Positions 48,592 to 64,000 of a stretch of DNA of 64,000 nucleotides are shown here, piece by piece. The notes under the pieces were generated by a model that saw only the letters and a program-made list of their open reading frames with translations, ran no database searches and was not told where the DNA came from. Positions within the stretch are counted from its first letter, which is position 1, and every line of letters starts with the position of its first letter. The stretch spans positions 186,001 through 250,000 of the forward strand of contig VERI01000002.1 of assembly GCA_018882785.1 (NCBI GenBank), in the 5' to 3' direction. This DNA comes from Burkholderiaceae bacterium. GTDB taxonomy: Bacteria; Pseudomonadota; Gammaproteobacteria; Burkholderiales; Burkholderiaceae_A. The position numbers and the translations under genes are program-made.

Positions 48592-50139
48592 GTGTTTGAC
48601 CTCGGCAGAACCTTTCTCCAATCCGTAGAGCGGGATCCGCACCGGGTCGGGCTGGTGGCCAGCGACTGTCGGCTGTCTTATCAGGAATGGGCAGGCCAGA
48701 TCGGTGCGCTGCAGGCCTATCTTCGAAAGGCTGGATTACGCCGGGGCGATCGGCTGCTCACCGTCTTACAGAATCGTCACCAGGCCGCCACTATCCACTG
48801 GGCCTGCCAGGCGAGCGGCATCATGATCGTGCCCGTTAATTGGCGGTCGAAGCCGGAGGAAATCAGTTTCTTTGTCGATAACGCCGAGGTCCGCTTCGCC
48901 TTCGTTGAACCCATCTCCGCCGAAAACTTTCTGGCCAGTGATGCGGCAAAGAAAATCCCCTATGTGCTGTGCGCCGGTGATGGCGCAAAGCGGCCATCTG
49001 ATGGGGATAGTTTTGAAGACATCGTCGGGCATCCGGCAACACTCTCGGCCGATGCCAGCCCAGAGGATTGGTCGGTCATGCTGTATACGTCGGGCACCAC
49101 AGGAAAGCCCAAGGGTGTGCCGAGACGACAGCGGGCCGAGCGCGCCGCTGCACTTGCCCATATCGCCCAGAATCAATATCGCATGCACGAAACCACCATC
49201 GGTGTGATGCCGCTCTACCACACCATGGGTGTGCGCTCCATGCTTGCCCTGTGCATGATCAACGGCACTTTTGTCACCTTTCCGCGCTGGAATCCTGAGC
49301 AGTTTATCGACACCATAGAACAGGAGCGTGTCACACATCTCTATCTTGTTCCGACGCTTTATCACGACATGCTGGCCTCGCCCGCCTTTGCGTCGCAGCG
49401 TATTCGATCGGTAACCAAACTCGGATTTGCGGGTGCCCCGATGCATGACGCGTTGCTGCTGAAGCTTCAGCAAACCTTTCAGCCCGAACTCTTTGTTAAT
49501 CATTACGGCTCAAGCGAGATCTATACCTACTCGATTAATCAGCGGGCCGTCGAAAAACCGGGCAGCGCCGGACGGGCCGGCCTCAACGCCCGCCTGCGTG
49601 TCGTCCGCTTCGATGACAGTGGCCATCGGGCCACCGCCGATGATCGCTGCGCCCCTGGCGAGGAAGGGCAAATCATTTGTGATTTTGCGGGCGATGAGGC
49701 ATTCGAAGGGTACTGGAAACGGCCCGAGGTCAATGAAAAGTCTATTCGTGATGGCTGGTTTTTTACCGGAGACACCGGACTCTTTGATCAGGATGGTGAG
49801 CTTTTCGTCACCGGCCGGGTCGATGACATGATCATATCGGGTGGCGAAAATATCTCGCCTGTCGAGATTGAGTCCGTCTTATCCTTGCATCCCGGTGTCG
49901 ACGAGGTCGCCGTTGCAGGTCTGCATGATGATCGGCTCGGACAGAAGGTGGTTGCATTTATTCGGCCATCAAATGGCCGACTGAGCGCAGAAGTGCTCGA
50001 TACCCATTGCAGAACCTCTGATCTCATGAATTTCAAACGACCCAGAGAATATGTCTTTGTGAAAGAAATTCCTAAATCTCCCGTTGGCAAGATTCTTCGG
50101 CGCAAACTGGTGGCCGGTGAGTTCGACAAACTAGACTAG
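48592..50139 (+). CDS. Acyl-CoA ligase, candidate 2-furoyl-CoA synthetase-like (HmfD-type)
   Basis: Adenylate-forming ligase of 515 aa. YTSGTTGKPKGVPRR is the phosphate loop (near 163-177), NHYGSSEIYTYS the A5-like motif (near 303), and SPVGKILRRKLV holds the catalytic Lys. The GTG start has GGAA 5 nt upstream; no ATG is in frame nearby. Its partner 23 bp downstream is a crotonase that resembles HmfE. The pair with an AraC gene recalls the furoate clusters, where HmfD activates 2-furoate with CoA. Aryl or heteroaryl acid substrate is likely; furoate is a hypothesis. Confidence 0.8.
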   Translation: MFDLGRTFLQSVERDPHRVGLVASDCRLSYQEWAGQIGALQAYLRKAGLRRGDRLLTVLQNRHQAATIHWACQASGIMIVPVNWRSKPEEISFFVDNAEVRFAFVEPISAENFLASDAAKKIPYVLCAGDGAKRPSDGDSFEDIVGHPATLSADASPEDWSVMLYTSGTTGKPKGVPRRQRAERAAALAHIAQNQYRMHETTIGVMPLYHTMGVRSMLALCMINGTFVTFPRWNPEQFIDTIEQERVTHLYLVPTLYHDMLASPAFASQRIRSVTKLGFAGAPMHDALLLKLQQTFQPELFVNHYGSSEIYTYSINQRAVEKPGSAGRAGLNARLRVVRFDDSGHRATADDRCAPGEEGQIICDFAGDEAFEGYWKRPEVNEKSIRDGWFFTGDTGLFDQDGELFVTGRVDDMIISGGENISPVEIESVLSLHPGVDEVAVAGLHDDRLGQKVVAFIRPSNGRLSAEVLDTHCRTSDLMNFKRPREYVFVKEIPKSPVGKILRRKLVAGEFDKLD

Positions 50140-50162
50140 AACACGAAAGGATCGACGCTTCT

Positions 50163-50969
50163 ATGGCTACCCTTCAACATCCCCTGGCAGACGCCCTCAG
50201 CAGTCTTGATGGGTTCCGCATCGATATTCAAGAAGGTCAACAACGTGCGGATATCGTGCTGTGCCGGCCGCCCTTCAACATCATCAGCATGGGCCAGCGA
50301 GATCAACTCAGGGCCGCCTTTGAGGCCCTGGATGCCGACCCCCGTGTCCGCATCATCGTGTTGCGGGCAGAGGGCGAACACTTTTCGAGTGGCGGTGACA
50401 TCAGGGGATTCCTCGAGGCCTCGCCCGAGCATGTCTCTAAACTCGCCTGGAATATTGCTGCCCCGGCCCGCTGTTCCAAGCCCGTGATCGCCGCCAACCA
50501 GGGCTACTGCTTTGGCGTTGGATTTGAGATATCACTGGCCTGCGATTTCAGAATCTGCACCGACACCACCTTATATGCGCTGCCCGAGCAGAAGCTCGGT
50601 CAGATTCCGGGGTCCGGCGGATCGGCACGTCTGCAAAAAATTGTTGGCATCACACGCACCAAAGATATCGTGATGCGATCCAGACGCATCCCTGGCGCCC
50701 AGGCCTATGACTGGGGAGTCGCGACCGAATATGTACCCACTCAGGATCTCGGCGCAACCGTCGATGCCCTGGTGAAGGAACTTCTGTCTTTCTCGCCGCT
50801 GGCCCAACGCACTGCAAAGCGTCTGCTGAATGAAACCGAGGATGCACTGCTCACCACGGCGATCGAGCTAGAGGGCCACTGTTACAGCCGGCTGCGCACA
50901 TCGGATGACTTCCGCGAGGGCGTAGAGGCGTTTCACCAGAAACGGCCGGCAGGGTTTAAAGGCAGTTAG
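50163..50969 (+). CDS. Crotonase-family protein, candidate 2-oxoglutaryl-CoA hydrolase (HmfE-like)
   Basis: Protein of 268 aa. Crotonase-fold motifs: GEHFSSGGDIRGFLE (oxyanion hole), GVGFEISLACDFR and YALPEQKLGQIPGSGG. Both glutamates equivalent to the catalytic pair of enoyl-CoA hydratase are present (in GFEIS and PEQKL). The N-terminal LADALSSLDGFRIDI block and a close ligase neighbour resemble HmfE, which cleaves 2-oxoglutaryl-CoA at the end of furoate catabolism. Hydratase activity cannot be excluded. It ends 3 bp from the convergent amidase. Confidence 0.78.
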   Translation: MATLQHPLADALSSLDGFRIDIQEGQQRADIVLCRPPFNIISMGQRDQLRAAFEALDADPRVRIIVLRAEGEHFSSGGDIRGFLEASPEHVSKLAWNIAAPARCSKPVIAANQGYCFGVGFEISLACDFRICTDTTLYALPEQKLGQIPGSGGSARLQKIVGITRTKDIVMRSRRIPGAQAYDWGVATEYVPTQDLGATVDALVKELLSFSPLAQRTAKRLLNETEDALLTTAIELEGHCYSRLRTSDDFREGVEAFHQKRPAGFKGS

Positions 50970-50972
50970 TCG

Positions 50973-52331
50973 TCAGGCCCGCAGGCTGGCATCTCTGCGC
51001 AAGACCGGCTCTAATGCCTGGGCGATGGCAAGAAGCTTTTCGTCATTGCCGGCAGGCCCCACGATCATGAATCCCGTTGGCGCTGAGCCGGGATCATGAT
51101 TCGGAATCGACACCGCACAGCCATCCAGAAAATTAAAGGTGCCCGGGTTTCGTAACATCAATGCGTTCACCCGAAAAAATTCATCATCGCTGGCGAGATC
51201 GGCAATCCGCGGTGCCACCAGGGGAACGGTGGGCATTACCCATGCGTCCAGCATGGCGGACTCCCGCAGAAACTGCGATCGGCACGATGCCCGGATCCGT
51301 TGCACCTGAATCAGTTTGGTCGCCGTAACATCGCGGCCGCGGCCAATCCGCGCAGCGACACGAACATCCATGCGATGCTGCGGCTGGGACACCAATAATC
51401 CAAACTCGGAGAATGCCTCAGAGCTCACCATGGTCGGCTGCCCCTCGCATCCAACAGCATCCTGAACTGCCTGACTATGCAGATCGGTGAGCACGGCGCC
51501 CGCAGCAGACAGGGCAGAAAGTGAGCGGGCATAGTTTTCCGCGACATGCTGATCCAGTCCATCGCAGACGAGATTCGTGAGCACGCCCAATCTCAGGCCG
51601 TTGATACTGGAGATTTCCGGATGCGGTGTACTCACACTGGCAAGCACACGGTCCACGTGTCGAATGCAATCCATCGACTGGCTGATCACACCCGCAGAGT
51701 CAAGACTCCGCGAGAGCGCCAGCACGCCTTGCAGACTGTAGCGATCGGCAGTCGGCTTGTAACCCACCAGGCCGTTTAAGGCAGCGGGAATCCGTATCGA
51801 ACCACCGGTATCTGATCCCAACGCCGCGTGCACCATGCCGTCTGCAACACTGATCGCGCCGCCCGAGGTTGATCCGCCAGGAATGCGCTGAGCGCTACGT
51901 TCAAAGGCATTGCTGGGCGTACCATAATGCGGATTAATGCCGATGCCCGAATAGGCACACTCGGTCATGTTGGTGCGGCCCATCAGAATCGCGCCCGCTG
52001 CCCGAAGCCGAGCTACCAAGACCGAGTCTTTGACTGCAGGGGCAGACCTTGCAGCGATTTCCACAGAACCGGCTGTGGTTTTTTCTCCTGCGACATCAAA
52101 CAGATCTTTAATCGACACCGTCACGCCTGCCAGAGCGCCCATCGGCAGGCTCTCCCGACAGGCATCCAGCCAGCGCGCTGTCAGACGGGATGCCTCGGAA
52201 TTGGATGAGATGAAGGCACGCGGGCCCTCACCCTGCGGATCAAGAATTTTCTGCAGCGACTCCTCGACAACCTCTTGCGCTGAACGCCCACCGGTTAGAA
52301 ACCGTTGTACCGCGATACCAATCCGATCCAA
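50973..52331 (-). CDS. Amidase-signature family hydrolase
   Basis: Amidase of 452 aa with the intact triad: Lys in VSIKDLFDV, cis-Ser in GGSTSGGAISVA and the nucleophile 24 residues on in TGGSIRIPA. It is the last gene of the minus operon hpaB-like, flavin reductase, DUF2848, cupin, amidase, so it probably hydrolyses an amide formed during breakdown of a nitrogen-containing substrate. The TTG start has AGGA 7 nt upstream, and the gap to the cupin gene is 9 bp. GatB/C are absent. Confidence 0.86.
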   Translation of the reverse strand: MDRIGIAVQRFLTGGRSAQEVVEESLQKILDPQGEGPRAFISSNSEASRLTARWLDACRESLPMGALAGVTVSIKDLFDVAGEKTTAGSVEIAARSAPAVKDSVLVARLRAAGAILMGRTNMTECAYSGIGINPHYGTPSNAFERSAQRIPGGSTSGGAISVADGMVHAALGSDTGGSIRIPAALNGLVGYKPTADRYSLQGVLALSRSLDSAGVISQSMDCIRHVDRVLASVSTPHPEISSINGLRLGVLTNLVCDGLDQHVAENYARSLSALSAAGAVLTDLHSQAVQDAVGCEGQPTMVSSEAFSEFGLLVSQPQHRMDVRVAARIGRGRDVTATKLIQVQRIRASCRSQFLRESAMLDAWVMPTVPLVAPRIADLASDDEFFRVNALMLRNPGTFNFLDGCAVSIPNHDPGSAPTGFMIVGPAGNDEKLLAIAQALEPVLRRDASLRA

Positions 52332-52340
52332 GTCTAAGTC

Positions 52341-52727
52341 CTAGCGATCTTCAGGATCGAAGTAATGGATCTCCAGCAGCAGGCAGCCCTTCTCAGACTT
52401 GAAGGGACCATGCGGCGTGCCGGGCGGGCGGCATGCATAGGTGCCAGGCTCAAAGCGTTCGCCTCCTTGACCATTGGCGTCATTGCCCACGATCAAATCG
52501 CCGCTGACCAGATAGACCTCTTCCCAGTACTCGTGGACAAAAGGCGCAGTGGTATAGACGCCCGGCTCAAACTTCAGATGACGCGTTCTCGAGCCGCGTT
52601 TTCCCGCCTCGTCTAAGGAGCCGGCAAGAATCTGCTGCTGAATACCCTTGGGGTATCCGGGTGGGGTTTCCCATCCTTTGCTCAGATCTACCTTATGAAA
52701 CTCTTTCCACTCTTTTTGAAGTGCCAT
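52341..52727 (-). CDS. Cupin-domain protein
   Basis: Small cupin of 128 aa. The two cupin motifs are visible as YTTAPFVHEYWEEVYLVSGD (with H and E metal ligands) and PGTPHGPFKSEKGCLLLEIHYF. ATG 52727 follows AAGGGGGG. Cupins this size can be ring-cleaving dioxygenases, isomerases or sensors. Its place between DUF2848 and the amidase indicates a step in the same catabolic route, but the reaction is unknown. Confidence 0.82.
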   Translation of the reverse strand: MALQKEWKEFHKVDLSKGWETPPGYPKGIQQQILAGSLDEAGKRGSRTRHLKFEPGVYTTAPFVHEYWEEVYLVSGDLIVGNDANGQGGERFEPGTYACRPPGTPHGPFKSEKGCLLLEIHYFDPEDR

Positions 52728-52741
52728 CACAACCCCCCTTA

Positions 52742-53416
52742 TTAATCGACAATCGGCAGCGACTCGGCTGCATACTGATGACGCAGCGAACGGCCACTGA
52801 CAGGATCATGGAGTTCGATTTCAAATAACTCCCCGCCCGCGATTTCTCCCATCACTGCATGCGTTCCACAAAACATGGCGGTGCCCGCCGGCAGCTGCGT
52901 GCCGCCGGTGTAGCGTTCAATCAGATCCTCTGGCCGACGCATACGCGACACGGGCCCTTCCTGATAGAGGCGCCGCTGCCCTCCTGCCGTGACCCAAGAC
53001 CGCGTCACGAGCTGATCCCAGTGAGACTGAAGCACAGCCATAGGCCAGACCTCTGGACCGATCGGCTTCGGACACATCTGCTTGGATACCGTCACGCCAT
53101 AGGCCTCGACCTTTCGGTCTGTATGGTCGGAACCAATGCCCACGAAAAGCCCCTGCGCCAGGGACAACAGGACCACCTCGACCTCGCCACTGGAATCCTG
53201 TCCAGCCACCTGGACACGGACCGATGTCGTCAGTCGATCTGCAGACACACGATAAAACGATGGAACATTTTTCGGGCGGGCAACACCGATGGCCTCGAGC
53301 TCCGCGATATGGTGCTCGACTGCCGCACTATCACGTCCGGTCCATCCGGCAATCACCAACTGCTCGATAGATGCCTCGAGTGGCCGACCCTCGGAGCTCA
53401 GCGCAAGTTTCACCAT
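52742..53416 (-). CDS. DUF2848 family protein (FAH-like fold)
   Basis: Protein of 224 aa matching DUF2848, a family related to fumarylacetoacetate hydrolases. Characteristic blocks are the N-terminal LVIAGWTGRDSAAVEHHI, FVGIGSDHTDRKVEAYG (probable acidic metal ligands) and the C-terminal MFCGTHAVMGEIAG. FAH-like enzymes cleave carbon-carbon bonds or decarboxylate ring-fission products. GGAG lies 9 nt before ATG. It is the third gene of the monooxygenase operon; its exact reaction is unknown. Confidence 0.86.
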   Translation of the reverse strand: MVKLALSSEGRPLEASIEQLVIAGWTGRDSAAVEHHIAELEAIGVARPKNVPSFYRVSADRLTTSVRVQVAGQDSSGEVEVVLLSLAQGLFVGIGSDHTDRKVEAYGVTVSKQMCPKPIGPEVWPMAVLQSHWDQLVTRSWVTAGGQRRLYQEGPVSRMRRPEDLIERYTGGTQLPAGTAMFCGTHAVMGEIAGGELFEIELHDPVSGRSLRHQYAAESLPIVD

Positions 53417-53469
53417 GATTAATTGCTCCGCTTTATTCAGAAAACATCGATGCAGAAAATTTGATTTGG

Positions 53470-54021
53470 CTATGACCAGCTATGACTGCCATAGTCGTAG
53501 CCGGATGATACATCAATGGACTCCGCAGGCAGCACCGATGCGCCACGCAGATAGGTTCCGTAATTGCTGCGAAAGAAAAGCAACGGCTCTGCATCTGCAC
53601 CCGCATGACAATGGGTGACCCGGCCCACATAGATCACATGATCTCCACCGGGATAGCTGAACTCCAGGTCACACTCAATGCTCGCCAATGCCTGCTCGAG
53701 TCGGGCCAGACCATTGCGGGCGCGAACGACAGGAATCCCCTGCCAGTCGGCAGTCGATGGACGGGCAAACCGGTTCGATACATCCTGCTGGGTATACGAC
53801 AGGATATTCACCACAAATTTTTTACTCTCCGCAAATATCGGAGTGATGTTTGAAGAAAGCCCCATGGAGAAGAGCACCAACGGCGGATCAAGAGAGACCG
53901 ACCCAAACGAGCTGACGGTAACACCGACATCTCGGCCATCTGACGTGGCCGTGGTGATCATTGCCACACCGGTGGCATAACGGCCAAGGATCTGCCGAAA
54001 AGTCCGTGAATCGATGGTCAA
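53470..54021 (-). CDS. Flavin reductase (HpaC-like small component)
   Basis: Protein of 183 aa in the FMN-binding split-barrel flavin reductase family. RYATGVAMITTATSDG, VTVSSFGSVSLDPPLVLFSM and FAESKKFVVNIL are diagnostic. It supplies reduced FAD/FMN to the partner monooxygenase. The start is TTG with GGGGA 5 nt upstream. It follows the HpaB-like gene after an 82-bp spacer with a hairpin, and is thus the second gene of the operon. Confidence 0.92.
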   Translation of the reverse strand: MTIDSRTFRQILGRYATGVAMITTATSDGRDVGVTVSSFGSVSLDPPLVLFSMGLSSNITPIFAESKKFVVNILSYTQQDVSNRFARPSTADWQGIPVVRARNGLARLEQALASIECDLEFSYPGGDHVIYVGRVTHCHAGADAEPLLFFRSNYGTYLRGASVLPAESIDVSSGYDYGSHSWS

Positions 54022-54061
54022 TAGTTTCCCCGGATGTATCGTGTCATCGCATCGACGAGGC

Positions 54062-54082
54062 CGCCCATCTATCTGATGGGCG
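54062..54082 (-). other. Hairpin between monooxygenase and flavin-reductase genes
   Basis: CGCCCATC and GATGGGCG (8 bp) enclose a 5-nt loop in the 82-bp intercistronic spacer. No U-tract follows on the minus strand. It may trim or stabilise the mRNA so that the large and small components are made at different levels. Confidence 0.5.
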
Positions 54083-54103
54083 CTCGCCGATCAATTCGCT
54101 CAC

Positions 54104-55612
54104 CTAGGCTGCCGCCTTTACCGGATTGGATGTCACCGGTGCAGGAGATGCGGCTGTCTGCTGGGCCGGCAGGCCATACCCCCCCAGGAATCGATCCACT
54201 GCGCCAAGGGCGCGCTGCCAGTTATAGGTGCGATAGGCATGGCCACGGGTCACCATTGTGGCGCCGGAATAAAACATCTCGTATTGAAGATGTCGCGAAC
54301 CAAATTCCGAGCCCACCGCATCCCATGCAAGCTTAAAGAGCTTTACGCGCCCCAGGCTATCGGTCGCAGGCGATTTCTGTGACTGCTGAATCACCGAAGC
54401 GATCTCGGGATTTGCAAAGTCGTCTGCAGACGACGGCAGCATAATCATGCCTCCACCGGACAACTCCCGGATGCTGGCAATAAACTTTGGATACAGCTGC
54501 TGGGTCAGCACGTTTGCGGCGTAAAGGCGCTGGCCATTGGGCACATAGTATTCACCGACCTGTCGGCCGCTGGCTTCCATGGCCTCCACCAGTCCCTCGA
54601 CCATGGATACCTCGGCAGCCATCTGGCCCAGGGTCTCCACCACGGGCGGGAAGGCAATAATGCCGTTGGTCTCGGCGACTTTGCGCGCAATCCCCAACAG
54701 GAACCGCATCTTCACCATGAATCGAATCTGACACTGATAATTCTGATAGACATGGGCGGGCGTGGCGTGCCACTGCTTGCCAGCCATCTCGGGGCTGCGG
54801 ATCGTAAAGACACGATCCCAGGGAACCTTTACCTCATCGAAATACAGCACTGCATCGTTCTCGTCATAACGACTGGATAGCGGATTATCAAAGACATCAC
54901 CGCTCTGGGCCTCATATGACTTGCGTGACAACATCTTCAGGCCCTTGGTCGCCAGCGGAATTGCAAAGCTGTAAGACAGCGGCTCTTCACCGGCTTTCAG
55001 CGGCTGAATAGTAGAAACAAACACTTCGTTTGCCATTGGACAGCCCGTGCCCAACATTTTGCTGCCCTTGATGGTGATGCCCTCGTGGTCTTCATCCACG
55101 ATCTTTGCAATCAGGTCCTCGGACTGCCCGCCCGCTGTCTTACTGCGGTCGGCCTGAGGATTGATGATCACGTAGGTCAGGTAGAGGTCGTTATCCCGCG
55201 CATGCTCGTAGTACGCCTTCAGATTGTTGGCGTAACGATCCCCATGTTCTTTAAACACATCCAGCCCCATCACCATACCGCCCAGCATGGAGCCGACGTG
55301 ATCGGGGGATCGTCCGAGAAAACCATTGTGCTGTTCGGCCCATGACTCCAGCGCCCGCCGACGCTGAACAAGCTCAGCATAGCTCTTGGGCAGCTGCCAG
55401 GTCCGGTTGACGCGATCCCCGGTTTTCGGTGATTCAAAGGTCATGAGATCCAGATTCTCTGGACGGGCCTGAAAGTCATACAGACTGCAGACCGATCGAA
55501 TCGATTCCGCAAAGGCGGGATGACTCACGTGATCCGTCACGACCTTGCCATCGATATAGATGGCCCGGCCATCTTGAAGACTACGGAAGTGTGCTGCGCC
55601 GTCTTTTACCAT
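54104..55612 (-). CDS. FADH2-dependent monooxygenase, 4-hydroxyphenylacetate 3-hydroxylase (HpaB) family
   Basis: Oxygenase of 502 aa, HpaB-family length, acyl-CoA-dehydrogenase-like fold. Typical blocks are LTYVIINPQADRSK (near 158), GITIKGSKMLGTGCPMANEV (near 182), PWDRVFTIRS (near 262) and the C-terminal FGSRHLQYEMFYSG. With the reductase it hydroxylates an aromatic or heteroaromatic ring. The tail after residue 480 is Ala/Pro/Thr-rich and unusual. GGGGGAG lies 6 nt before ATG; a GC-rich hairpin is in its leader. The substrate is unknown; HpaB itself acts on 4-hydroxyphenylacetate, but no meta-cleavage genes are nearby. Confidence 0.9.
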   Translation of the reverse strand: MVKDGAAHFRSLQDGRAIYIDGKVVTDHVSHPAFAESIRSVCSLYDFQARPENLDLMTFESPKTGDRVNRTWQLPKSYAELVQRRRALESWAEQHNGFLGRSPDHVGSMLGGMVMGLDVFKEHGDRYANNLKAYYEHARDNDLYLTYVIINPQADRSKTAGGQSEDLIAKIVDEDHEGITIKGSKMLGTGCPMANEVFVSTIQPLKAGEEPLSYSFAIPLATKGLKMLSRKSYEAQSGDVFDNPLSSRYDENDAVLYFDEVKVPWDRVFTIRSPEMAGKQWHATPAHVYQNYQCQIRFMVKMRFLLGIARKVAETNGIIAFPPVVETLGQMAAEVSMVEGLVEAMEASGRQVGEYYVPNGQRLYAANVLTQQLYPKFIASIRELSGGGMIMLPSSADDFANPEIASVIQQSQKSPATDSLGRVKLFKLAWDAVGSEFGSRHLQYEMFYSGATMVTRGHAYRTYNWQRALGAVDRFLGGYGLPAQQTAASPAPVTSNPVKAAA

Positions 55613-55709: not shown

Positions 55710-56297
55710 ATGGCCAAAATCCACGTTTCCAGATCAGGTATTCATGCCGGGTTTTCCTCGCCGTTGTCCGTCTCCCGGCCCGAGCTGCTCGATGAGGACG
55801 GCACGTCTGACCGACGATTTCGACAACTTATCTATGACCTGTCTGTGGCCGGCAATCAGCTTGGACTGGCCAGAAAGCTTCTGGCGGCCCAGCTCGGCGT
55901 CACTCCGCCGCGCTACAACATTCTGATGGTGGTGGCCCAATATCAGGGCCGGCAAGGCGTGAGTGTGAGCGAGGTCGCCCGCCACCTCCATGTCTCTACG
56001 GCCCACATTACCAATCAGGTGAAATTTCTAGAAAAGAAAAAATGGCTTGTCACGGCACCCAACCCGGAAGACGGCAGAAGCCGTCTGATGCGAATCGACC
56101 CCAGCCAGGAGTCCCGGCTCACCGGCCTGGCCAAGCACCTGCACCGAGTCAACGATGACCTGTTCGGCGGACTCAACCGCCGCGACTTTCAGTCCCTTAG
56201 CCGTCTGCTGACGCAATTGGTCGAAGATTTTGAGCAGGCACTCAACCGACTGGCCACAGGTCCGGCGAAAAAACGCCGGCCTAAATCATCTCCTTGA
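55710..56297 (+). CDS. MarR family transcriptional regulator
   Basis: Winged-helix regulator of 195 aa, long for MarR because of about 45 extra N-terminal residues. The DNA-binding part is GVSVSEVARHLHVSTAHITNQVKFLEKKKWL, followed by the wing NPEDGRSRLMRI. It is divergent from the monooxygenase operon, as HpaR is from hpa genes, and its stop overlaps the 3' end of the second ligase by 17 bp. It probably represses the flanking operons until a phenolic or CoA-thioester ligand appears. The ribosome-binding site is poor. Confidence 0.88.
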   Translation: MAKIHVSRSGIHAGFSSPLSVSRPELLDEDGTSDRRFRQLIYDLSVAGNQLGLARKLLAAQLGVTPPRYNILMVVAQYQGRQGVSVSEVARHLHVSTAHITNQVKFLEKKKWLVTAPNPEDGRSRLMRIDPSQESRLTGLAKHLHRVNDDLFGGLNRRDFQSLSRLLTQLVEDFEQALNRLATGPAKKRRPKSSP

Positions 56298-57810
56298 GCT
56301 TAAAGCGCATGACCTTGCCGGAGCCCGTCCGGGGAATGGTCTCCACGCTGGCTAATGTTGCAGGCACTTTGTAAGAAGAAATCTGACCACGCAGAAACTC
56401 CAACAAGGCGGATTCGTCCACCGACTGCCCCGCCCGCGGCACATAGAAAAGTGCGGGCACTTCACCGAGATGGGCGTGCGGCAGTCCCACCGCCGCACAA
56501 TCCAATAGCGCTGGAAATTTCAGGGCAGCCTCTTCAATCTCTCCCGGTGCAATATTCTGTCCACCACGAATAATCAATTCCTTCAGCCGCCCGGTAATCA
56601 CCAGAAAGCCATTTGGATCGGCCTTGGCAAGGTCGCCTGTGCGATACCAGCCGTCCCCCATCGCCTTATCGGTCTCCTCCGGTTTATTGTGATAACCCAG
56701 CATGAGATTCGGTCCTCGGACCACGAGCTCGCCTTCTTCCTCTGGACCGCAATCCCGACGTGACTCAGGATGCAGAATACGTACCGCAACCCCTGGAACC
56801 GGCAGGCCACAGTACCCGGGCCGGCGGCTCGAACGGGGCGAATTCAAGGTCACCATGGTCGCGGTCTCCGTAATGCCGTAGCCATCGACTAAGGTCACAC
56901 CGGAGCGCTCCTCAAAACGCCGGTTAAGCTCAGCCTGCATGATGGCACCGGCGGAGATGCACAAACGCAGCCCCTTGAATTGAAATGCAGTGTCTGACTG
57001 CGCACCCTCCAGCAGGTAATGAAACATGGTCGGCACGCCCGGCATCAGCGTAAATTCCCCCGTACCGATTAGACGCATCGCCTCTGCGGTGGAGTAGCGC
57101 TCCATAATGTATTCCGTCGCGCCAACCGCCAGAATTGCCAGCACCGAAAGATTGAGCGCATAGGAGTGAAACAATGGTAGCGGCGATAGCACCACATCCC
57201 GTTCATTCAAACCCGCGATGGGAATCCAGCAGGCGCCCACCACCCATAGCATGGAGCGTGCACTAAGACGCACCCCCTTGGCCCTGCCAGTGGTGCCTGA
57301 GGTGTACACAATGTAGGCAGCCCCGTCGATATCTTGAGGATCACGTGGCGCCCTTGTGGTGGGCCTGGCCACAATATCTTCGTAACAGCTAAATCCCTCA
57401 GCAGCTGCCCCAACCGACATGAACGTCAAGCCCTCGGGGAGTCCCTGGGCCTGAAGGGTGGCAATCTTCTCGGCAGTGGAGATCACCAATCGGGTTTCAG
57501 AGTCCCGCAGCCGGTAATCGACCTCGCCATGGGCGGCATCAAAAGAGATCGGTACCGCCACCAGGCCAGCACGCGCAAGCGCCAGGCAGCTCACCACCCA
57601 GGGCACTGAATTAGGCAACAGCAGCGCAACCCGATCTCCAGGCGCCAGCCCCGCATCTGCCAATGCCACTGCCAGCGCAGCCGTCTGCTTGGCAAGGTCG
57701 CCATAACTGATCGATATAGCCGCATCCCGCCAGGCACAATGATTCGGCCGAGATTGCGCATGGCGCCGAATCAATTCGGGAATGGGAACAATGACCTCTG
57801 TATGAATCAT
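56281..57810 (-). CDS. Acyl-CoA ligase (class I adenylate-forming)
   Basis: Ligase of 509 aa. YTSGTTGRAKGVRLS (near 172) is the phosphate loop, VDGYGITETATMV the A5 motif, TGRLKELIIRGGQNIAPGEIEE the hinge, and TGSGKVMRFKL holds the catalytic Lys. GGAG lies 8 nt before ATG. It is the last gene of the seven-gene molybdenum-hydroxylase operon. A second CoA ligase in the island implies either a different acid or a second activation step. Its closest characterised relative cannot be told by eye. Confidence 0.87.
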   Translation of the reverse strand: MIHTEVIVPIPELIRRHAQSRPNHCAWRDAAISISYGDLAKQTAALAVALADAGLAPGDRVALLLPNSVPWVVSCLALARAGLVAVPISFDAAHGEVDYRLRDSETRLVISTAEKIATLQAQGLPEGLTFMSVGAAAEGFSCYEDIVARPTTRAPRDPQDIDGAAYIVYTSGTTGRAKGVRLSARSMLWVVGACWIPIAGLNERDVVLSPLPLFHSYALNLSVLAILAVGATEYIMERYSTAEAMRLIGTGEFTLMPGVPTMFHYLLEGAQSDTAFQFKGLRLCISAGAIMQAELNRRFEERSGVTLVDGYGITETATMVTLNSPRSSRRPGYCGLPVPGVAVRILHPESRRDCGPEEEGELVVRGPNLMLGYHNKPEETDKAMGDGWYRTGDLAKADPNGFLVITGRLKELIIRGGQNIAPGEIEEAALKFPALLDCAAVGLPHAHLGEVPALFYVPRAGQSVDESALLEFLRGQISSYKVPATLASVETIPRTGSGKVMRFKLKEMI

Positions 57811-57831: not shown

Positions 57832-58587
57832 TTATACCATTGAAAAACCACCATTGACACTCATCACCTGACCGGTGATCCATCCCGCCTGATCGGACGC
57901 AAGAAATGCGACAAGCGGTGCAACATCAGCAGGCTCACCAATACGACGGATCGCATAGTTACGAAGAATCTTTTCCTTGTTGGTCTCAAGCCATACAGGA
58001 TCGGTGTGATCGGTATTGATCAGCCCGAGTGAGATGACATTGGCGGTGATGTTGTGCCGCCCCATCTCCTTGGCCAAAGATTTGGTCAACGAGATCACAC
58101 CCCCGCGGGAGGCTGCCGTCACCGATAACGATGCCTCGCCAACACGGGCCGAATCGCCACACAGGCTAATTACCCTCCCGGATCCCTGCCTCGCCATATG
58201 CGGCAGGGCTGCCCGGCAGGTATGAATCACACCATACAGCCCAACGCCAATCTGGCTTTGCCAATCCTGTTCGGTTGTCTCCAGAAATTTCCTTGGGATT
58301 ACCAGGCCGGCGTTATTGACCAGCACATCAATGCGGCCCCACTGAGAGACGACGGCCTCGACCATTGTGGTGGCGTCCGAAAACTTGGATACGTCTCCCG
58401 CAACAGCGATTGCATCTCCCTTTGCGGCACGAATCTCTTTCACCAGGGCATCGGCCTCGGCTGCTGCACTTCGATAATTAATCGCAACCTTGGCGCCCGC
58501 CTTGGCGAGATGCCGGACAATCTCGCGGCCCACACCGCGTGCACTTCCAGTCACCAATGCGACTTTTCCTTGCATCTCTGTTGTCAT
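57832..58587 (-). CDS. Short-chain dehydrogenase/reductase-fold protein with degenerate catalytic residues
   Basis: SDR-fold protein of 251 aa. The cofactor motifs are intact: VTGSARGVGREI (12-23) and NNAG (91-94). The catalytic tetrad is not: the usual N of the DVNLxG block is G (GVGLYG), the Ser position reads SLCGD, and YxxxK is replaced by T157 and R161 (SVTAASRGGV). The rest (TKSLAKEMGRHNITANVISLG) follows FabG-type SDRs. It may bind NAD(P) without classical reduction, act as an isomerase or lyase, or be regulatory. GGGAGAG precedes ATG. Confidence 0.85.
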   Translation of the reverse strand: MTTEMQGKVALVTGSARGVGREIVRHLAKAGAKVAINYRSAAAEADALVKEIRAAKGDAIAVAGDVSKFSDATTMVEAVVSQWGRIDVLVNNAGLVIPRKFLETTEQDWQSQIGVGLYGVIHTCRAALPHMARQGSGRVISLCGDSARVGEASLSVTAASRGGVISLTKSLAKEMGRHNITANVISLGLINTDHTDPVWLETNKEKILRNYAIRRIGEPADVAPLVAFLASDQAGWITGQVMSVNGGFSMV

Positions 58588-58598
58588 CTCGACTCTCC

Positions 58599-60971
58599 CT
58601 ATGAATGACTTGCCAATAAAGACTGATATGCCTCACAGGACTGCAGCGACTCGAAGAGCCGTTGCGGCGTCGCGGGAAGCTCCTGAATGCCGACCCCAAA
58701 ACCGGACAAGGCATCACTGATTGCGTTCGCAATCGCAGCTGGCGCACCGATCGTTCCGCCCTCTCCCACACCACGAAAGCCGCCAAGGGTCGACGGCGAC
58801 TGGGTATCGAGGTGAACAATCTCCAGATTTGGCACTTCGGGTGCCGACGGCACCAGATAGTCGGCAAGACTTGCGGTCTGCAGCTGTCCGGTCTCATCAT
58901 AAAAAACCTCTTCGAATAATGCCGCCCCAATACCTTGGGCAACGGCACCACGAATCTGCCCTTCGACCAACATCGGATTGATCATCTGGCCACAGTCCTC
59001 CGCTACAACATAGGCCTGTATCTCGACTGCAAGGGTCACTGGATCAATCTCCACCTGAACCATATGGGTCGCAGACGATGTGGTGCCAAACACCGGGTCG
59101 TAGACCGCAGAAACCGAAAGCTCCACCCGGAGCTCCTCCGGAAGATTGACCTGGGTATAGACCCGCCGAGCAATCGTATGAAAACTCAGTCGCTCATTTG
59201 TCTGACGGTGAATGACCGTACTGTCGAGAACATCACACTGATCGGGTGTTGTCTGCATGGCGTGGGCTGCAACGTTCAGCAGCCGCTCCCGCAGCTCACG
59301 GCCCGCCTTTAAGGCAGCGCCACCGCTGAGCACTGCGCTTCGGCTGGCATAGCTGCCAGTGCTGTAGGGCACCGCAGACGTATCACCCACCACAATTGTG
59401 ATGTCATCAAGACAGGCCCCGGTCGCATCAGCAACGACCTGCGCCAGTATGGTCTCGTGGCCCTGGCCGTGGGATGCGCAGCCAAATGCAGCGGTTAGCC
59501 TGCCTGTGGAGTCTAGCGTCAGGCAGCAGGTATCTGTGCCGGTATTAATCGGCATTCCGGGAGACGCAGAAATCCGCGAGCCAATTCCGGTGAGCTCTGC
59601 ATATGACGCCACACCAATTCCCACCAGCCTGCCGGTCTCACGTGCCCGCTGCTGCTCACGCCGACGATGGTCATAGTCGAATCGGAGGGCTGCTGCTGCG
59701 ATGCCCTCTTGGAATGCAGATCGATCCCAGACAATTCCGCTGCCAGTTCTAAATGGAAACTCATCCGGGTTGATGAGGTTTTTTTGCCGAAATACGACAG
59801 GGTCAAGTCCCACACGTGCAGCGGCCATATCCATCAGCCGCTCCATCACAAATGTCGAAATCGGCCGGCCAACACCCCGATACGGGCCCGCAGGTGCCTT
59901 AGGCGTGGCCACTGCACGGGCTGACCCCTGATAGTTGGTAATACGATACGGACCCGGCATAAAACTAATCGCCTGCACCGGTTCGATACCTGCAGTCCAG
60001 GGATAAATCGAGTAGGCACCGACATCACCCGTGACCTTGGCACGCAGCGCAAGAATGCTGCCATCGGCCGCAACCGCAAGTTCCGCATCCACGACCTCAT
60101 CAAATGCCTGGCTGGTGGCAAGCAGATCCTCCATTCGGTCGCCCGTCCATTTCACGGTCCGCCCGAGCTTGACCGCGAGTGCGCTCACGAGGAGTTCCTC
60201 CGGATAAACAGATGTCTTGCCGCCAAAGCCCCCACCCACATCCGGTGCGATCACAGTGATCTGAATACCCGGAAGTCGGACGAATTCTGCAATCGCATCC
60301 TTGACGATACCGGGTACCTGGGTCGAGCTGGTCAGCCGCAGCTGGCGACGGCCCGCATCGAATTCAGCAAAACATGCACGATTCTCCAGTGCAACGGGTG
60401 TCTTACGACGAAACCGAAAACGTCCACCAACTGTGTGGTCTGCATCCGCAAAGCCTTGCGTCGGATCACCCCGAACAAACTCGCGAGAGACCAGTACATT
60501 ACTGGACAGTTCAGGATGCAGAATCGGTGCCTGCTCGGCGGCAGCACGCTCGGGATCATGCTCGGCGTCAAGCGGCTCAAGTTCTAACTGAATCGCCTCA
60601 AGCGCATCTTCAGCACGGTAGCGATCCACAGCCGCAACCACAACCACTGGCTCACCCACATAACGCACCACATCGACAGCCAGTGCAGGCATCTGTGTGG
60701 GCTGATAATGCAGCATTTTTGAAGGCGCAACCATGGGCGCGATCCAATCATGGATGTCCTCTGCCGTCACGACTGTGAACACGCCAGGCATCGCTCGGGC
60801 TGCCGAAACATCCAGACGTATGATTCGGGCATAGGCTGCGGGGCTTCGCAGAACTGCCAGATGGAGCGCCTGGCGAACAGGGTGGTCATCCGTGTACTGC
60901 CCGCGCCCGGTCAGCAGCCGCAGGTCTTCCCGTCGCAGTACCGACTGGCCAATCTTAGAATCAGAATTCAT
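58599..60971 (-). CDS. Molybdenum hydroxylase large subunit (xanthine dehydrogenase/CoxL family)
   Basis: Molybdopterin-binding subunit of 790 aa. N-terminal VLRREDLRLLTGRGQYTDD is the CoxL-family start; VGGGFGGKTSVYPEE, GPYRGVGRPIS and CASHGQGHETILAQ line the Mo site, and the catalytic Glu is in FRGVGEGGTIG. The CODH-specific AYRCSFR loop is absent, so it is not carbon monoxide dehydrogenase. It hydroxylates an aldehyde or heteroaromatic carbon with water. ATG 60971 has GGAA 6 nt upstream and is preferred over GTG 60983, which overlaps the MBL stop. Confidence 0.92.
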   Translation of the reverse strand: MNSDSKIGQSVLRREDLRLLTGRGQYTDDHPVRQALHLAVLRSPAAYARIIRLDVSAARAMPGVFTVVTAEDIHDWIAPMVAPSKMLHYQPTQMPALAVDVVRYVGEPVVVVAAVDRYRAEDALEAIQLELEPLDAEHDPERAAAEQAPILHPELSSNVLVSREFVRGDPTQGFADADHTVGGRFRFRRKTPVALENRACFAEFDAGRRQLRLTSSTQVPGIVKDAIAEFVRLPGIQITVIAPDVGGGFGGKTSVYPEELLVSALAVKLGRTVKWTGDRMEDLLATSQAFDEVVDAELAVAADGSILALRAKVTGDVGAYSIYPWTAGIEPVQAISFMPGPYRITNYQGSARAVATPKAPAGPYRGVGRPISTFVMERLMDMAAARVGLDPVVFRQKNLINPDEFPFRTGSGIVWDRSAFQEGIAAAALRFDYDHRRREQQRARETGRLVGIGVASYAELTGIGSRISASPGMPINTGTDTCCLTLDSTGRLTAAFGCASHGQGHETILAQVVADATGACLDDITIVVGDTSAVPYSTGSYASRSAVLSGGAALKAGRELRERLLNVAAHAMQTTPDQCDVLDSTVIHRQTNERLSFHTIARRVYTQVNLPEELRVELSVSAVYDPVFGTTSSATHMVQVEIDPVTLAVEIQAYVVAEDCGQMINPMLVEGQIRGAVAQGIGAALFEEVFYDETGQLQTASLADYLVPSAPEVPNLEIVHLDTQSPSTLGGFRGVGEGGTIGAPAAIANAISDALSGFGVGIQELPATPQRLFESLQSCEAYQSLLASHS

Positions 60972-60982
60972 CAGCAGTTCCA

Positions 60983-61744
60983 CTACTCATACGCCAACGC
61001 CCCAGTGCGCAAGGTGTCCCACTGTACGGGATCATGGCCACACAACACGGTATAGCCCTGAGACTGAATCCGGCGTAATTCTGCAAGCGATGCAGTCAGT
61101 AACTCCGGATTCCAGGTATTGCGCGGAATAATTTCGCCCAGCAGATGCTCTGACATCGGCACGCAGTCCGATGCAAGCACGAAACGATCACCGCTCTCGA
61201 GATGCACCAATGCTGCCGTCATGCCAGGCGTGTGCCCGGGAACCGGCAACAGAATCAGCCGGCCATCGCCGAAGATATCGACCGACTCTGAAAATGGTCG
61301 AATCGATGTGCCCTCTGCCCAGTCTTCAGAAAAAATACCTTGGGCCAGGGCATCGGGCCGACGGGCGTATTCCAACTCCTGCGCATGGGCTCTGACCTCG
61401 GCACGACGGAAGAACCGATTACAGCCGCAGTGATCCGTATGCAGATGGGAATTGATCACCAGATCAATGTCATCGGGCGTCAGCCCAAGTTCCGCCAGTT
61501 GGTCAATCAGATTGTCCTCAGGCCGTCCAACGGGCGTCATGAATTTTGCAAGCCCTCCCCACCGGGCCTCTGGTTCAGTGACGACCGCAGGATGGCATCC
61601 CGTATCAAACAGAACGTTTCCGCGCGGATGGCGCAACAGATAACAATTGACAGGCAGCCGCATTTTTTCCGCACGGTCCGCATCCGGATAGAACACCGAT
61701 CGACGCATCTGCAGAAATCCACCGGTAAGAACATGCATGCGCAT
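60983..61744 (-). CDS. MBL-fold hydrolase, N-acyl-homoserine-lactonase-like
   Basis: Protein of 253 aa with the metal motif SHLHTDHCGC (H100, H102, D104, H105) and VPGHTPGM and LASDC later ligands, matching the AiiA/AttM lactonase group. The ATG overlaps the stop of the 2Fe-2S subunit gene (TAATG). It lies inside the molybdenum-hydroxylase operon, between small and large subunits, so it more likely opens a pathway lactone than quenches quorum signals. In the furoate route, 5-hydroxyfuroyl-CoA tautomerises to an enol-lactone, which would be a fitting substrate. Confidence 0.87.
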   Translation of the reverse strand: MRMHVLTGGFLQMRRSVFYPDADRAEKMRLPVNCYLLRHPRGNVLFDTGCHPAVVTEPEARWGGLAKFMTPVGRPEDNLIDQLAELGLTPDDIDLVINSHLHTDHCGCNRFFRRAEVRAHAQELEYARRPDALAQGIFSEDWAEGTSIRPFSESVDIFGDGRLILLPVPGHTPGMTAALVHLESGDRFVLASDCVPMSEHLLGEIIPRNTWNPELLTASLAELRRIQSQGYTVLCGHDPVQWDTLRTGALAYE

Positions 61745-62274
61745 TATTTACTCTCCGAGTGTGGCTTCGCACAGGCCATCACCGCCTGCACGATGCCCTG
61801 ATAGCCCGTGCATCGGCATAGATTGCCAGACAACAGATCCCGAATCTGCGCCTCATCTGCGTTGGGATAGCGCTCCACAATTTCACTGGCTGTCATCAGC
61901 ATCCCCGGGGTGCAAAATCCACACTGCAGTCCGTGACATTCACGAAACGCCTGCTGCAACGGATTTAACTGATCTGGCGATCCCAGCGCCTCAACCGTCT
62001 GAATCGATAAACCATTGGCCTGCACAGCCAGCATGAGACAGGCGCGCATCGAAACCCCATCCACCAGAATCGTGCAGGCACCACAGACACCGTGCTCGCA
62101 GCCGACATGTGTTCCCGTAAGGCCCAGCGTATGCCGAAGAAAATCTGACAGCAGAAGACGCGGCTCCACGCGTCGCTCGATGACCTCGCCATTGACGATC
62201 ACCCAGAGATCATGAAGCTCTGTCTGCCCATCGCCAGTCGACGGAGAGAGTTGTAACGCTGGTTCCGAATTCAT
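61744..62274 (-). CDS. Molybdenum hydroxylase small subunit, 2Fe-2S protein
   Basis: Protein of 176 aa with two 2Fe-2S clusters. The plant-type cluster is GCEHGVCGACTILVDG plus a downstream C; the second is CGFCTPGMLM and CRCTGYQGIVQA. It passes electrons from the Mo site to FAD. GGGAG lies 4 nt before ATG. The first 25 residues are a short extension not typical of CoxS. It sits between the FAD subunit and the lactonase-like gene. Confidence 0.95.
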   Translation of the reverse strand: MNSEPALQLSPSTGDGQTELHDLWVIVNGEVIERRVEPRLLLSDFLRHTLGLTGTHVGCEHGVCGACTILVDGVSMRACLMLAVQANGLSIQTVEALGSPDQLNPLQQAFRECHGLQCGFCTPGMLMTASEIVERYPNADEAQIRDLLSGNLCRCTGYQGIVQAVMACAKPHSESK

Positions 62275-62289
62275 AGATCTCCCATCCTC

Positions 62290-63189
62290 TCAATGTGTCG
62301 CCGCATGGGATTGGCCCCCTGAGGTGCCATGAAGATCTGAGGCTTCTGCCAGACAGCGCGCCACCAAGGATCTCGCAAGGTGACGCCGGAACTGCGCCGA
62401 TGCCTGTCGGTCATTCATCAGATCCATATCACCGCAAATATCCGCAGAACACTCGCGAATCAGCTGATCACTTGGCCGTTGACCCCTGAGCGCACTCTCG
62501 AGATCGGTCAGACGAAACGCACGATCCATTACACCCATCAGTCCGACCCGCGCCGACCGAATCTGTTGCCCATCAAAATCCAGAATGACCGCGCAGGCGG
62601 CCATGGCGAAGTCCCCCGGACGGCGAGATACTTCCTGAAACACGGCACGATGGCCCTTCGGCAAGGCGGGAAACCTCACCTGAATAATCATCTCGTCTTC
62701 TTGCAGATCCGTGGTCAGCGGGCCAAGGAAAAAATCATTCGCTGCGACCCGACGATCTCCACGCACGGAACTCAGTGTCAGCTCCGCCTCGAGTAAGACC
62801 GCCAACAAGGCCCACTCCGCCGCAGGATCTGCATGGGCAAGGCTGCCCCCGATCGTGCCGCGATTACGAATGGCCAGGTGGGCAACATGCCGCAACGCCT
62901 GCGGAATAATTGGCCAGCCTGTCGCCGCAAGGGGCGACTCGATCATCGCGTTATGCCGCATACGGGCGCCGCAGATCAGGCCGCCCTGGCTATCTTGGGT
63001 CAAGGTTTCAAGCTCCAACAGGCGCCCAATATCAATGACGACACCTGGCTGCACCACTCGAAAATTCATCATCGGAATCAGGCTCTGGCCGCCAGCGATA
63101 ATCTTGGCCGATCCCACATGGGCCGACAACATCTGCCGGGCCTCCGCCAGCGTCTCGGGAACGAGATAGCGAAATAACGGTGGCTTCAC
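62290..63189 (-). CDS. Molybdenum hydroxylase medium subunit, FAD-binding
   Basis: FAD-binding subunit of 299 aa (CoxM family). The two flavin motifs are AGGQSLIPMMNFR (near 31) and RGTIGGSLAHADPAAEW (near 112). The start is GTG with AGGGG 8 nt upstream, 2 nt past the stop of the crotonase gene. With the 2Fe-2S and Mo subunits it forms a heterotrimeric hydroxylase. Confidence 0.93.
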   Translation of the reverse strand: MKPPLFRYLVPETLAEARQMLSAHVGSAKIIAGGQSLIPMMNFRVVQPGVVIDIGRLLELETLTQDSQGGLICGARMRHNAMIESPLAATGWPIIPQALRHVAHLAIRNRGTIGGSLAHADPAAEWALLAVLLEAELTLSSVRGDRRVAANDFFLGPLTTDLQEDEMIIQVRFPALPKGHRAVFQEVSRRPGDFAMAACAVILDFDGQQIRSARVGLMGVMDRAFRLTDLESALRGQRPSDQLIRECSADICGDMDLMNDRQASAQFRRHLARSLVARCLAEASDLHGTSGGQSHAATH

Positions 63190-63191
63190 CC

Positions 63192-64000
63192 CTAAGACCC
63201 CTGAAACCTCGGCGTACGTTTCTCTAAAAATGCCTGCCGTCCCTCGCGATAGTCCTGGCTATCGCTCGCCTGGCGAATTCTTCGTTCAGCCTCGGCAGCA
63301 TCAAGCCCAGCGAGAGACAGCGCCATCGAGTTCAGCATGAACTTTGCCCCTGACTGGGTCAGAGGGGCCTGCTGAATCATCTGTTGCGCAAAACGGCGTG
63401 CTGCCGCCATCGGGTCCTGTGCCAGCGGTGCCGGACGGCGCTTAAACCAGCCCAGCCAGCCTGCGCTGTCGCTGGGTGTCGCTTCCTCCCGGTGATCAAT
63501 AAACCCCCAGCGCAGGGCATCGTCTGCACCGAACCGTTGTGCTGAAAATAAAATTTGCTTGGCCCGCGTCACACCCACGAGGGCCAGAAGCTTCGCGGTC
63601 CCATTAACGCCATAGACGATCGAAAGCCTTCCAGCGGGGATTCCGAAGACAGCATCCGCGGCCGCCATTCGAAAGTCACACGACATGGCCAGATGCGCGC
63701 CACCGCCCAGGCAATAGCCCGAGATCACAGCAATCGTGGGCTTGGGCAGTTGGAAGATCGCCGAACAGCAGGCGTCCACCGCAACTTCATAGTCTCTGCT
63801 TTGCTGTGCGTTATCGCGGACTGACTCAAATTCCGCGATATCGGCACCCGCACAGAAATTTCCTCCTGCCCCAGTCAGAATCACCACACGCACCTGTCTG
63901 TCTTTACCCAGATCGTCGAAGATCTGAGCAAGACGCTTCCACATCTGCAGGCTCATCGCGTTTTTCACGGCAGGACGATTCAGGGTCACGATGGCCATGC
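63192..64000 (-). CDS. Crotonase-family protein (partial at window edge)
   Basis: Enoyl-CoA hydratase/isomerase-fold protein, 268 codons in the window; the true start lies beyond base 64000 because the chain begins at AIVTLNRPAVKNAM, normally preceded by 10-20 residues. The oxyanion-hole block GAGGNFCAGADIAEFE is present. The two catalytic glutamates of true hydratases are not: the positions read GGGAHLAMSC and FGIPAGRLSI (His and Ala). A 15-residue insertion (WFKRRPAPLAQDP) is also odd. So it is probably not a simple enoyl-CoA hydratase. It is the first visible gene of the seven-gene operon. Confidence 0.85.
   Translation of the reverse strand, partial: MAIVTLNRPAVKNAMSLQMWKRLAQIFDDLGKDRQVRVVILTGAGGNFCAGADIAEFESVRDNAQQSRDYEVAVDACCSAIFQLPKPTIAVISGYCLGGGAHLAMSCDFRMAAADAVFGIPAGRLSIVYGVNGTAKLLALVGVTRAKQILFSAQRFGADDALRWGFIDHREEATPSDSAGWLGWFKRRPAPLAQDPMAAARRFAQQMIQQAPLTQSGAKFMLNSMALSLAGLDAAEAERRIRQASDSQDYREGRQAFLEKRTPRFQGS

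Follow-up and report, generated by a model that had tools for sequence, protein, structure and literature searches.

The window, by which we mean the whole 64,000-nucleotide stretch of DNA analysed, contains an SDR gene within a run of minus-strand genes in the order crotonase, xanthine dehydrogenase (XDH) medium subunit, XDH small subunit, AttM-like lactonase, XDH large subunit, SDR and CoA ligase, with intergenic gaps of -1 to 21 bp. The features of this operon and its surroundings are as follows.

48592 to 50969, plus strand: a second acyl-CoA ligase and a second crotonase, with homologues (53% and 62% identical) in the SDR operon of the related locus L147
55710 to 56297, plus strand: MarR-type regulator, convergent with the operon
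56281 to 57810, minus strand: AMP-forming acyl-CoA ligase, next downstream of the SDR gene after a 21-bp gap; an orthologue lies beside the SDR gene in most relatives
57832 to 58587, minus strand: SDR-fold protein without the N/S/Y/K tetrad (G116, G144, T157 and R161 at these positions; GDSARVGEA at residues 144–152)
58599 to 60983, minus strand: xanthine dehydrogenase-family molybdopterin large subunit; the closest NCBIfam models, CODH group 5 and glyceraldehyde dehydrogenase alpha, both score below cut-off
60983 to 61744, minus strand: metallo-beta-lactamase-fold lactonase, AttM/BlcC-like, with an HLHTDH motif, between the XDH small and large subunit genes
61744 to 62274, minus strand: [2Fe-2S] small subunit of the molybdenum hydroxylase
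62290 to 63189, minus strand: FAD-binding medium subunit of the molybdenum hydroxylase
63192 to 63998, minus strand: crotonase/enoyl-CoA hydratase family protein, whose frame runs past the window as a CoxG–crotonase fusion of 463 aa

Upstream on the same contig, past the window, lie the CoxG domain to which the operon's crotonase is fused and genes for a thioesterase, an iron-containing alcohol dehydrogenase and a branched-chain-type ABC transporter. A CoxG–crotonase fusion is located at L142 1192–2583, and a second molybdenum hydroxylase cluster is also found past the window (L142 10738–15105, minus strand), with a large subunit of 1012 aa that is apparently fused to CoxG. It is possible that the MarR-type protein regulates the SDR operon. 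The minus-strand set at 50973–55612, comprising an HpaB-type monooxygenase, a flavin reductase, a DUF2848-like protein (named by eye, with no NCBIfam match), a cupin-like protein and an amidase that scores above the PRK07056 subfamily cut-off, is probably a separate catabolic unit.

The SDR gene reads from an ATG at 58587 to 57832 on the minus strand, the one detail that the first-pass annotation lacked, and encodes 251 aa. Its tetrad columns were set by aligning the window protein to 31 ordinary SDRs from a scan of genome contigs with generic NNAG patterns, which returned ordinary SDRs only and served solely as an outgroup. Position 116 is Asn and position 144 Ser in 30 of these 31 proteins, and position 157 is Tyr and position 161 Lys in all of them; the window protein has Gly, Gly, Thr and Arg, respectively, and hence lacks the catalytic tetrad of classical SDRs. 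The first-pass annotation had read all four positions as replaced, with Gly for Asn and T157...R161 for YxxxK, and the alignment agrees; its "Cys/Gly" for the Ser position narrows to G144, with C143 being the adjacent residue. The cofactor motifs TGSARGVG (residues 13–20, matching TGxxxGxG) and NNAG (91–94) are present. An AlphaFold model (mean pLDDT 95.5) adopts the Rossmann SDR fold, and FabG structures are its closest counterparts in the PDB, with about 1.0 Å and a TM-score of 0.93, among them Listeria monocytogenes FabG (4jro; 1.0 Å over 247 columns). Since the model superposes so closely on FabG, a shift of the tetrad to other residues is not plausible, and the 31-SDR alignment likewise rejects it; the structural comparison proposed with the original annotation therefore upholds the assignment. 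Nor is Y118 or Y211 likely to be a relocated Tyr, as both occur in sister sequences whose catalytic Tyr and Lys are intact. By family scores, the protein matches Pfam adh_short_C2 (199 bits), while its best NCBIfam model, FabG TIGR01830, yields 214.8 bits against an equivalog cut-off of 297.75; none of the NCBIfam models shown is matched above its curated cut-off.

Is this a lone, decaying FabG? Taken by itself, the loss of catalytic residues would be compatible with a functionless mutant copy, the outcome named beforehand as refuting the annotation, but 20 orthologues with 50–57% identity, found in Hyphomicrobiales and on their plasmids, also lack the Tyr and Lys. On plasmids, tblastn recovered full-length relatives (52–57% identity) in Aminobacter, Agrobacterium, Sinorhizobium, Rhizobium and Bradyrhizobium. 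Of 398 Hyphomicrobiales genomes, 9 matched a seven-sequence profile with E values of 1e-112 or better, and in a phylum-wide draw the next SDRs appeared only at about 1e-68. In the tree the window protein groups with its 20 orthologues in a single clade (support 100/97), which is nested next to L002 and the L125/L139/L140 group, SDRs in which Tyr and Lys are intact (support for the larger group 98/91). In all 21 members the Ser position is Gly, the Lys position is Arg and Tyr is absent (Ala in 14, Thr in 3, Val in 3, Gly in 1); the Asn position holds Cys in 16, Gly in 3 and Asn in 2. Given the shared Ser-to-Gly and Lys-to-Arg replacements and the missing Tyr, a single loss of the three residues at the base of the clade is the simplest account. 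Ratios of dN/dS between rhizobial orthologues of 0.03–0.14 indicate that the gene has been under strong purifying selection since these residues were lost. Together with the intact frames and operon gaps of -1 to 21 bp, the profile search, the tree and these ratios lead us to reject decay, which we regard as extremely improbable. A kept function, as the first-pass annotation suggested, is borne out by the many orthologues, the selection and the conserved operon, and the protein probably does a related job by different chemistry.

The annotated members of the clade carry the names "3-oxoacyl-ACP reductase" or "SDR family oxidoreductase". One apparent second copy, L136 (at a contig end, G652 C166), was discarded as a chimera with unknown residues, its N-terminal part as in L132 and its C-terminal part from another SDR; the gene lies at two contig ends of one assembly. 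The SDR had no match at 1e-40 in any of the 25 genomes of the window's own genus or family, and the gene is therefore probably accessory there and horizontally acquired.

What has taken the place of the tetrad? Thr is not conserved: a search for orthologues with the same T/R pair, as first proposed, finds R161 invariant and position 157 unconstrained, so that T157 is no replacement catalyst and was rejected as a candidate. Residues that are invariant in the clade and not so in ordinary SDRs include Q112, Y118, G144, D145, S146, R148, E151, L154, R161 and R177, and further L187, H194, D196, Y211, W236 and S243. None of the five sister sequences that bear Tyr and Lys has G144, S146, R161, H194 or D196. 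The sister clade of L125, L139 and L140 (ISDAGRAGEAGLEVYSGAK) has a D-x-x-R-x-G loop in common with the clade, whose own family motif on the loop after strand 5 is GDS[SA]R[IV]GE[AS]; the two sister-clade loci mapped by script, L153 and L155, lie in ligase–SDR–crotonase clusters. The new invariants fall on this loop, on the YxxxK helix and on the segment after the PG motif, regions that jointly line the substrate pocket of SDRs, and G144, S146, E151, L187, H194 and D196 are predicted to be placed around it.

The nucleotide site gives a mixed picture. Like FabG and classical SDRs, the clade has the fold, NNAG, D65 and most of the nucleotide site; it differs in lacking N/S/Y/K, in having Leu for the Pro of the PG motif and in the new H194, S146 and D196. 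The cofactor-contact residues T13, G14, R17, G20, N37, D65, NNAG, G188 and T192 are invariant in 21 of 21 members, which argues for NADP(H) binding and against a dead protein, and R161, which is likewise invariant and corresponds to Lys in the sister clade, may continue to bind the nicotinamide ribose. The annotated retention of the NAD motifs stands for the window copy but not in full for the clade, because G18, the middle Gly of TGxxxGxG, is Gly only there and Asp in the other 20 members. This Asp might disturb the pyrophosphate site and so speaks against an NADP(H) reductase, as may the change of P187 to Leu in all members.

One alternative is a non-redox enzyme on the SDR fold (a hydratase, isomerase, lyase or hydrolase), comparable to the halohydrin dehalogenases, in which an SDR became a cofactor-free enzyme; the group S146/H194/D145/D196/R161 would then provide acid–base or nucleophilic catalysis. 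Halohydrin dehalogenases have an S-x12-Y-x3-R triad and a T-x4-F/Y-x-G loop and lack a nicotinamide cofactor site (PMC4989007). The clade resembles them in its Arg at the Lys position, with equal spacing, and in its altered glycine loop, the middle Gly being replaced where they carry Phe or Tyr (PMC4989007). The catalytic Ser of HheC is contacted by the residue two positions further on (PMC4989007); S146 is the equivalent of that residue and, like H194 and D196, is newly invariant. However, the window SDR reads G-x12-T-x3-R, lacking both the Ser and the Tyr that halohydrin dehalogenases require and keep, and has Gly (Asp in orthologues) at the F/Y position. The clade also keeps NNAG, D65, R17 and T192 invariant, whereas the dehalogenases have no nicotinamide site, and G18 persists in the window copy. 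We consider a non-redox role unlikely.

With four catalytic positions gone, a Tyr position that drifts freely among Ala, Thr, Val and Gly and an intact fold (pLDDT 95.5), the protein could also be a pseudoenzyme, a dead SDR that acts as a subunit, structural or regulatory, of either an active SDR or a different enzyme of the operon. The bbs operon reportedly encodes both subunits of such a pair, and BbsC is said to have its active SDR partner there. Where PMC10818641 cites it (doi 10.1111/febs.16216), BbsC is the inactive SDR subunit of the BbsCD heterotetramer, which would make inactive SDR subunits a precedent, likewise in an operon for CoA-dependent degradation. Unlike bbs, the plasmid operons of the clade that carry annotation have no second SDR annotated beside the clade SDR. 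The invariance of the cofactor residues and of the new pocket motif also weighs against this explanation, which strikes us as rather unlikely.

We tentatively favour a third possibility, in which the SDR uses NADPH to reduce the C=C bond of an intermediate, either an enoyl-CoA or a butenolide. The analogy is with PECR and DECR, which reduce trans-2-enoyl-CoA and, with NADPH, dienoyl-CoA, respectively (PMC10288848). Human PECR (PDB 1yxm) has VHSGAARAG aligned at the YxxxK site, and in PDB 6lln, a protein of citronellol catabolism, the sequence there is GHSGAARSG; both are of the form [ST]xxxR. The window SDR (T157-AAS-R161) conforms to the [ST]xxxR or [ST]xxxK pattern of the PECR/DECR type and the clade reads A/T/V/G-xxx-R, in a similar CoA-thioester context. 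The lineages are separate, however, and the loop sequence after strand 5 is different. When the tree was extended with a PECR-like SDR and with a second T..R family, it showed three separate losses of Tyr and no common descent with PECR-like SDRs, whose representative L118 3139–4020 lies far from the clade but on a long branch; such independent loss would count against the analogy. That SDR (minus strand; HTCAARAG) is related to 6lln and 1yxm and adjoins a crotonase gene. The second family with a T..R pair at YxxxK, represented by L004 1489–2256 and L023 (PTSVTRAAGL), has the motif PTS[IV][ST]RAAGL; the best PDB relative of L004 is 6jh7, also without Tyr and Lys at those columns. A further parallel is SimC7, described as an NADPH-dependent SDR with Ser-Ile-His in place of Tyr/Lys, in which the substrate assists and makes the triad dispensable for reduction (PMC5039031); SimC7 differs in keeping the Ser and in its polyketide substrate. 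The suggestion that the protein does not perform classical reduction holds in that its residues exclude Tyr/Lys carbonyl reduction, but it does not imply an absence of reduction, as PECR and DECR illustrate, and the cofactor residues are conserved.

If C=C reduction is correct, the clade would have dropped the Ser/Tyr/Lys proton relay while keeping the NADP(H) site, and hydride would be delivered to the activated C=C of an enoyl-CoA or of an unsaturated lactone or butenolide. The catalytic Tyr would be unnecessary, with the substrate's own enolate or new pocket residues standing in.

The neighbourhood suggests where such a step might fit. The SDR gene sits in what its gene content indicates is a conserved catabolic operon for a carboxylic acid, and rhizobial plasmids carry the same gene set, mostly with an added succinate-semialdehyde dehydrogenase (SSADH); the Bradyrhizobium version has no thioesterase, iron-containing alcohol dehydrogenase or SSADH nearby. 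At L150 (G832) the SDR, ligase, lactonase, crotonase, thioesterase, iron-containing alcohol dehydrogenase and SSADH are present, with no XDH match within the 20 kb taken. Among the 398 genomes searched, the lactonase occurs in all nine that bear the SDR and in only four others, which have no SDR of the clade genome-wide at 1e-60 and no ligase or XDH large-subunit match near the lactonase. L172, L173 and L174 combine an AttM-like lactonase with weak XDH medium and small subunit matches, with no XDH large subunit, ligase or SDR nearby; judged by this content, theirs is a different lactonase-containing cluster. A literature search on SDRs without YxxxK and on the operon returned no description of the operon.

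Two described pathways resemble its halves. Furoate degradation proceeds through a ligase, a molybdenum dehydrogenase, a lactone and a thioesterase (hmfABCDE; PMC6678421), and its described architecture shares the logic of ligase, molybdenum hydroxylase and thioesterase. In blcABC, butyrolactone is converted via hydroxybutyrate to succinic semialdehyde (PMC5924552), a lactone-to-semialdehyde route mirrored by the lactonase, iron-containing alcohol dehydrogenase and SSADH. Neither includes an SDR as described (PMC6678421, PMC5924552), whereas the window operon combines both sets. A C=C reductase would join the furoate-like half to the butyrolactone-like half; CoA-ester formation, the crotonases and the lactonase in the operon also appear to favour it. 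In the envisaged sequence, a carboxylic acid would be activated by the CoA ligase and then ring-hydroxylated by the molybdenum enzyme toward a lactone, the hydroxylated five-membered ring tautomerising to the unsaturated form. The SDR would saturate the C=C of this lactone, and the AttM-like lactonase would open the saturated ring to a 4-hydroxy acid, which the thioesterase, the iron-containing alcohol dehydrogenase and, in rhizobia, SSADH could convert to succinate. Taken as a whole, and with the reaction type left broader, we cautiously suggest that the clade is an undescribed SDR subfamily with a rebuilt site (GDS[SA]R[IV]GE loop, R161, H194 and D196), which may catalyse C=C reduction or a non-redox step in an undescribed pathway; this would start from a heterocyclic carboxylic acid, pass through hydroxylation by the molybdenum enzyme and a lactone stage, and end in 4-hydroxybutyrate and succinate.

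Few enzyme superfamilies are larger than the SDRs, in which reductase activity is usually predicted from the Tyr/Lys pair. By alignment and phylogeny the family described here is coherent and its tetrad replacement is confirmed. A clade in which this replacement is clean, complete, conserved and tied to one operon constitutes a defined test case for a fold gaining other chemistry. It also marks a catabolic pathway found on plasmids of rhizobia; several of these plasmids are typed as conjugative.
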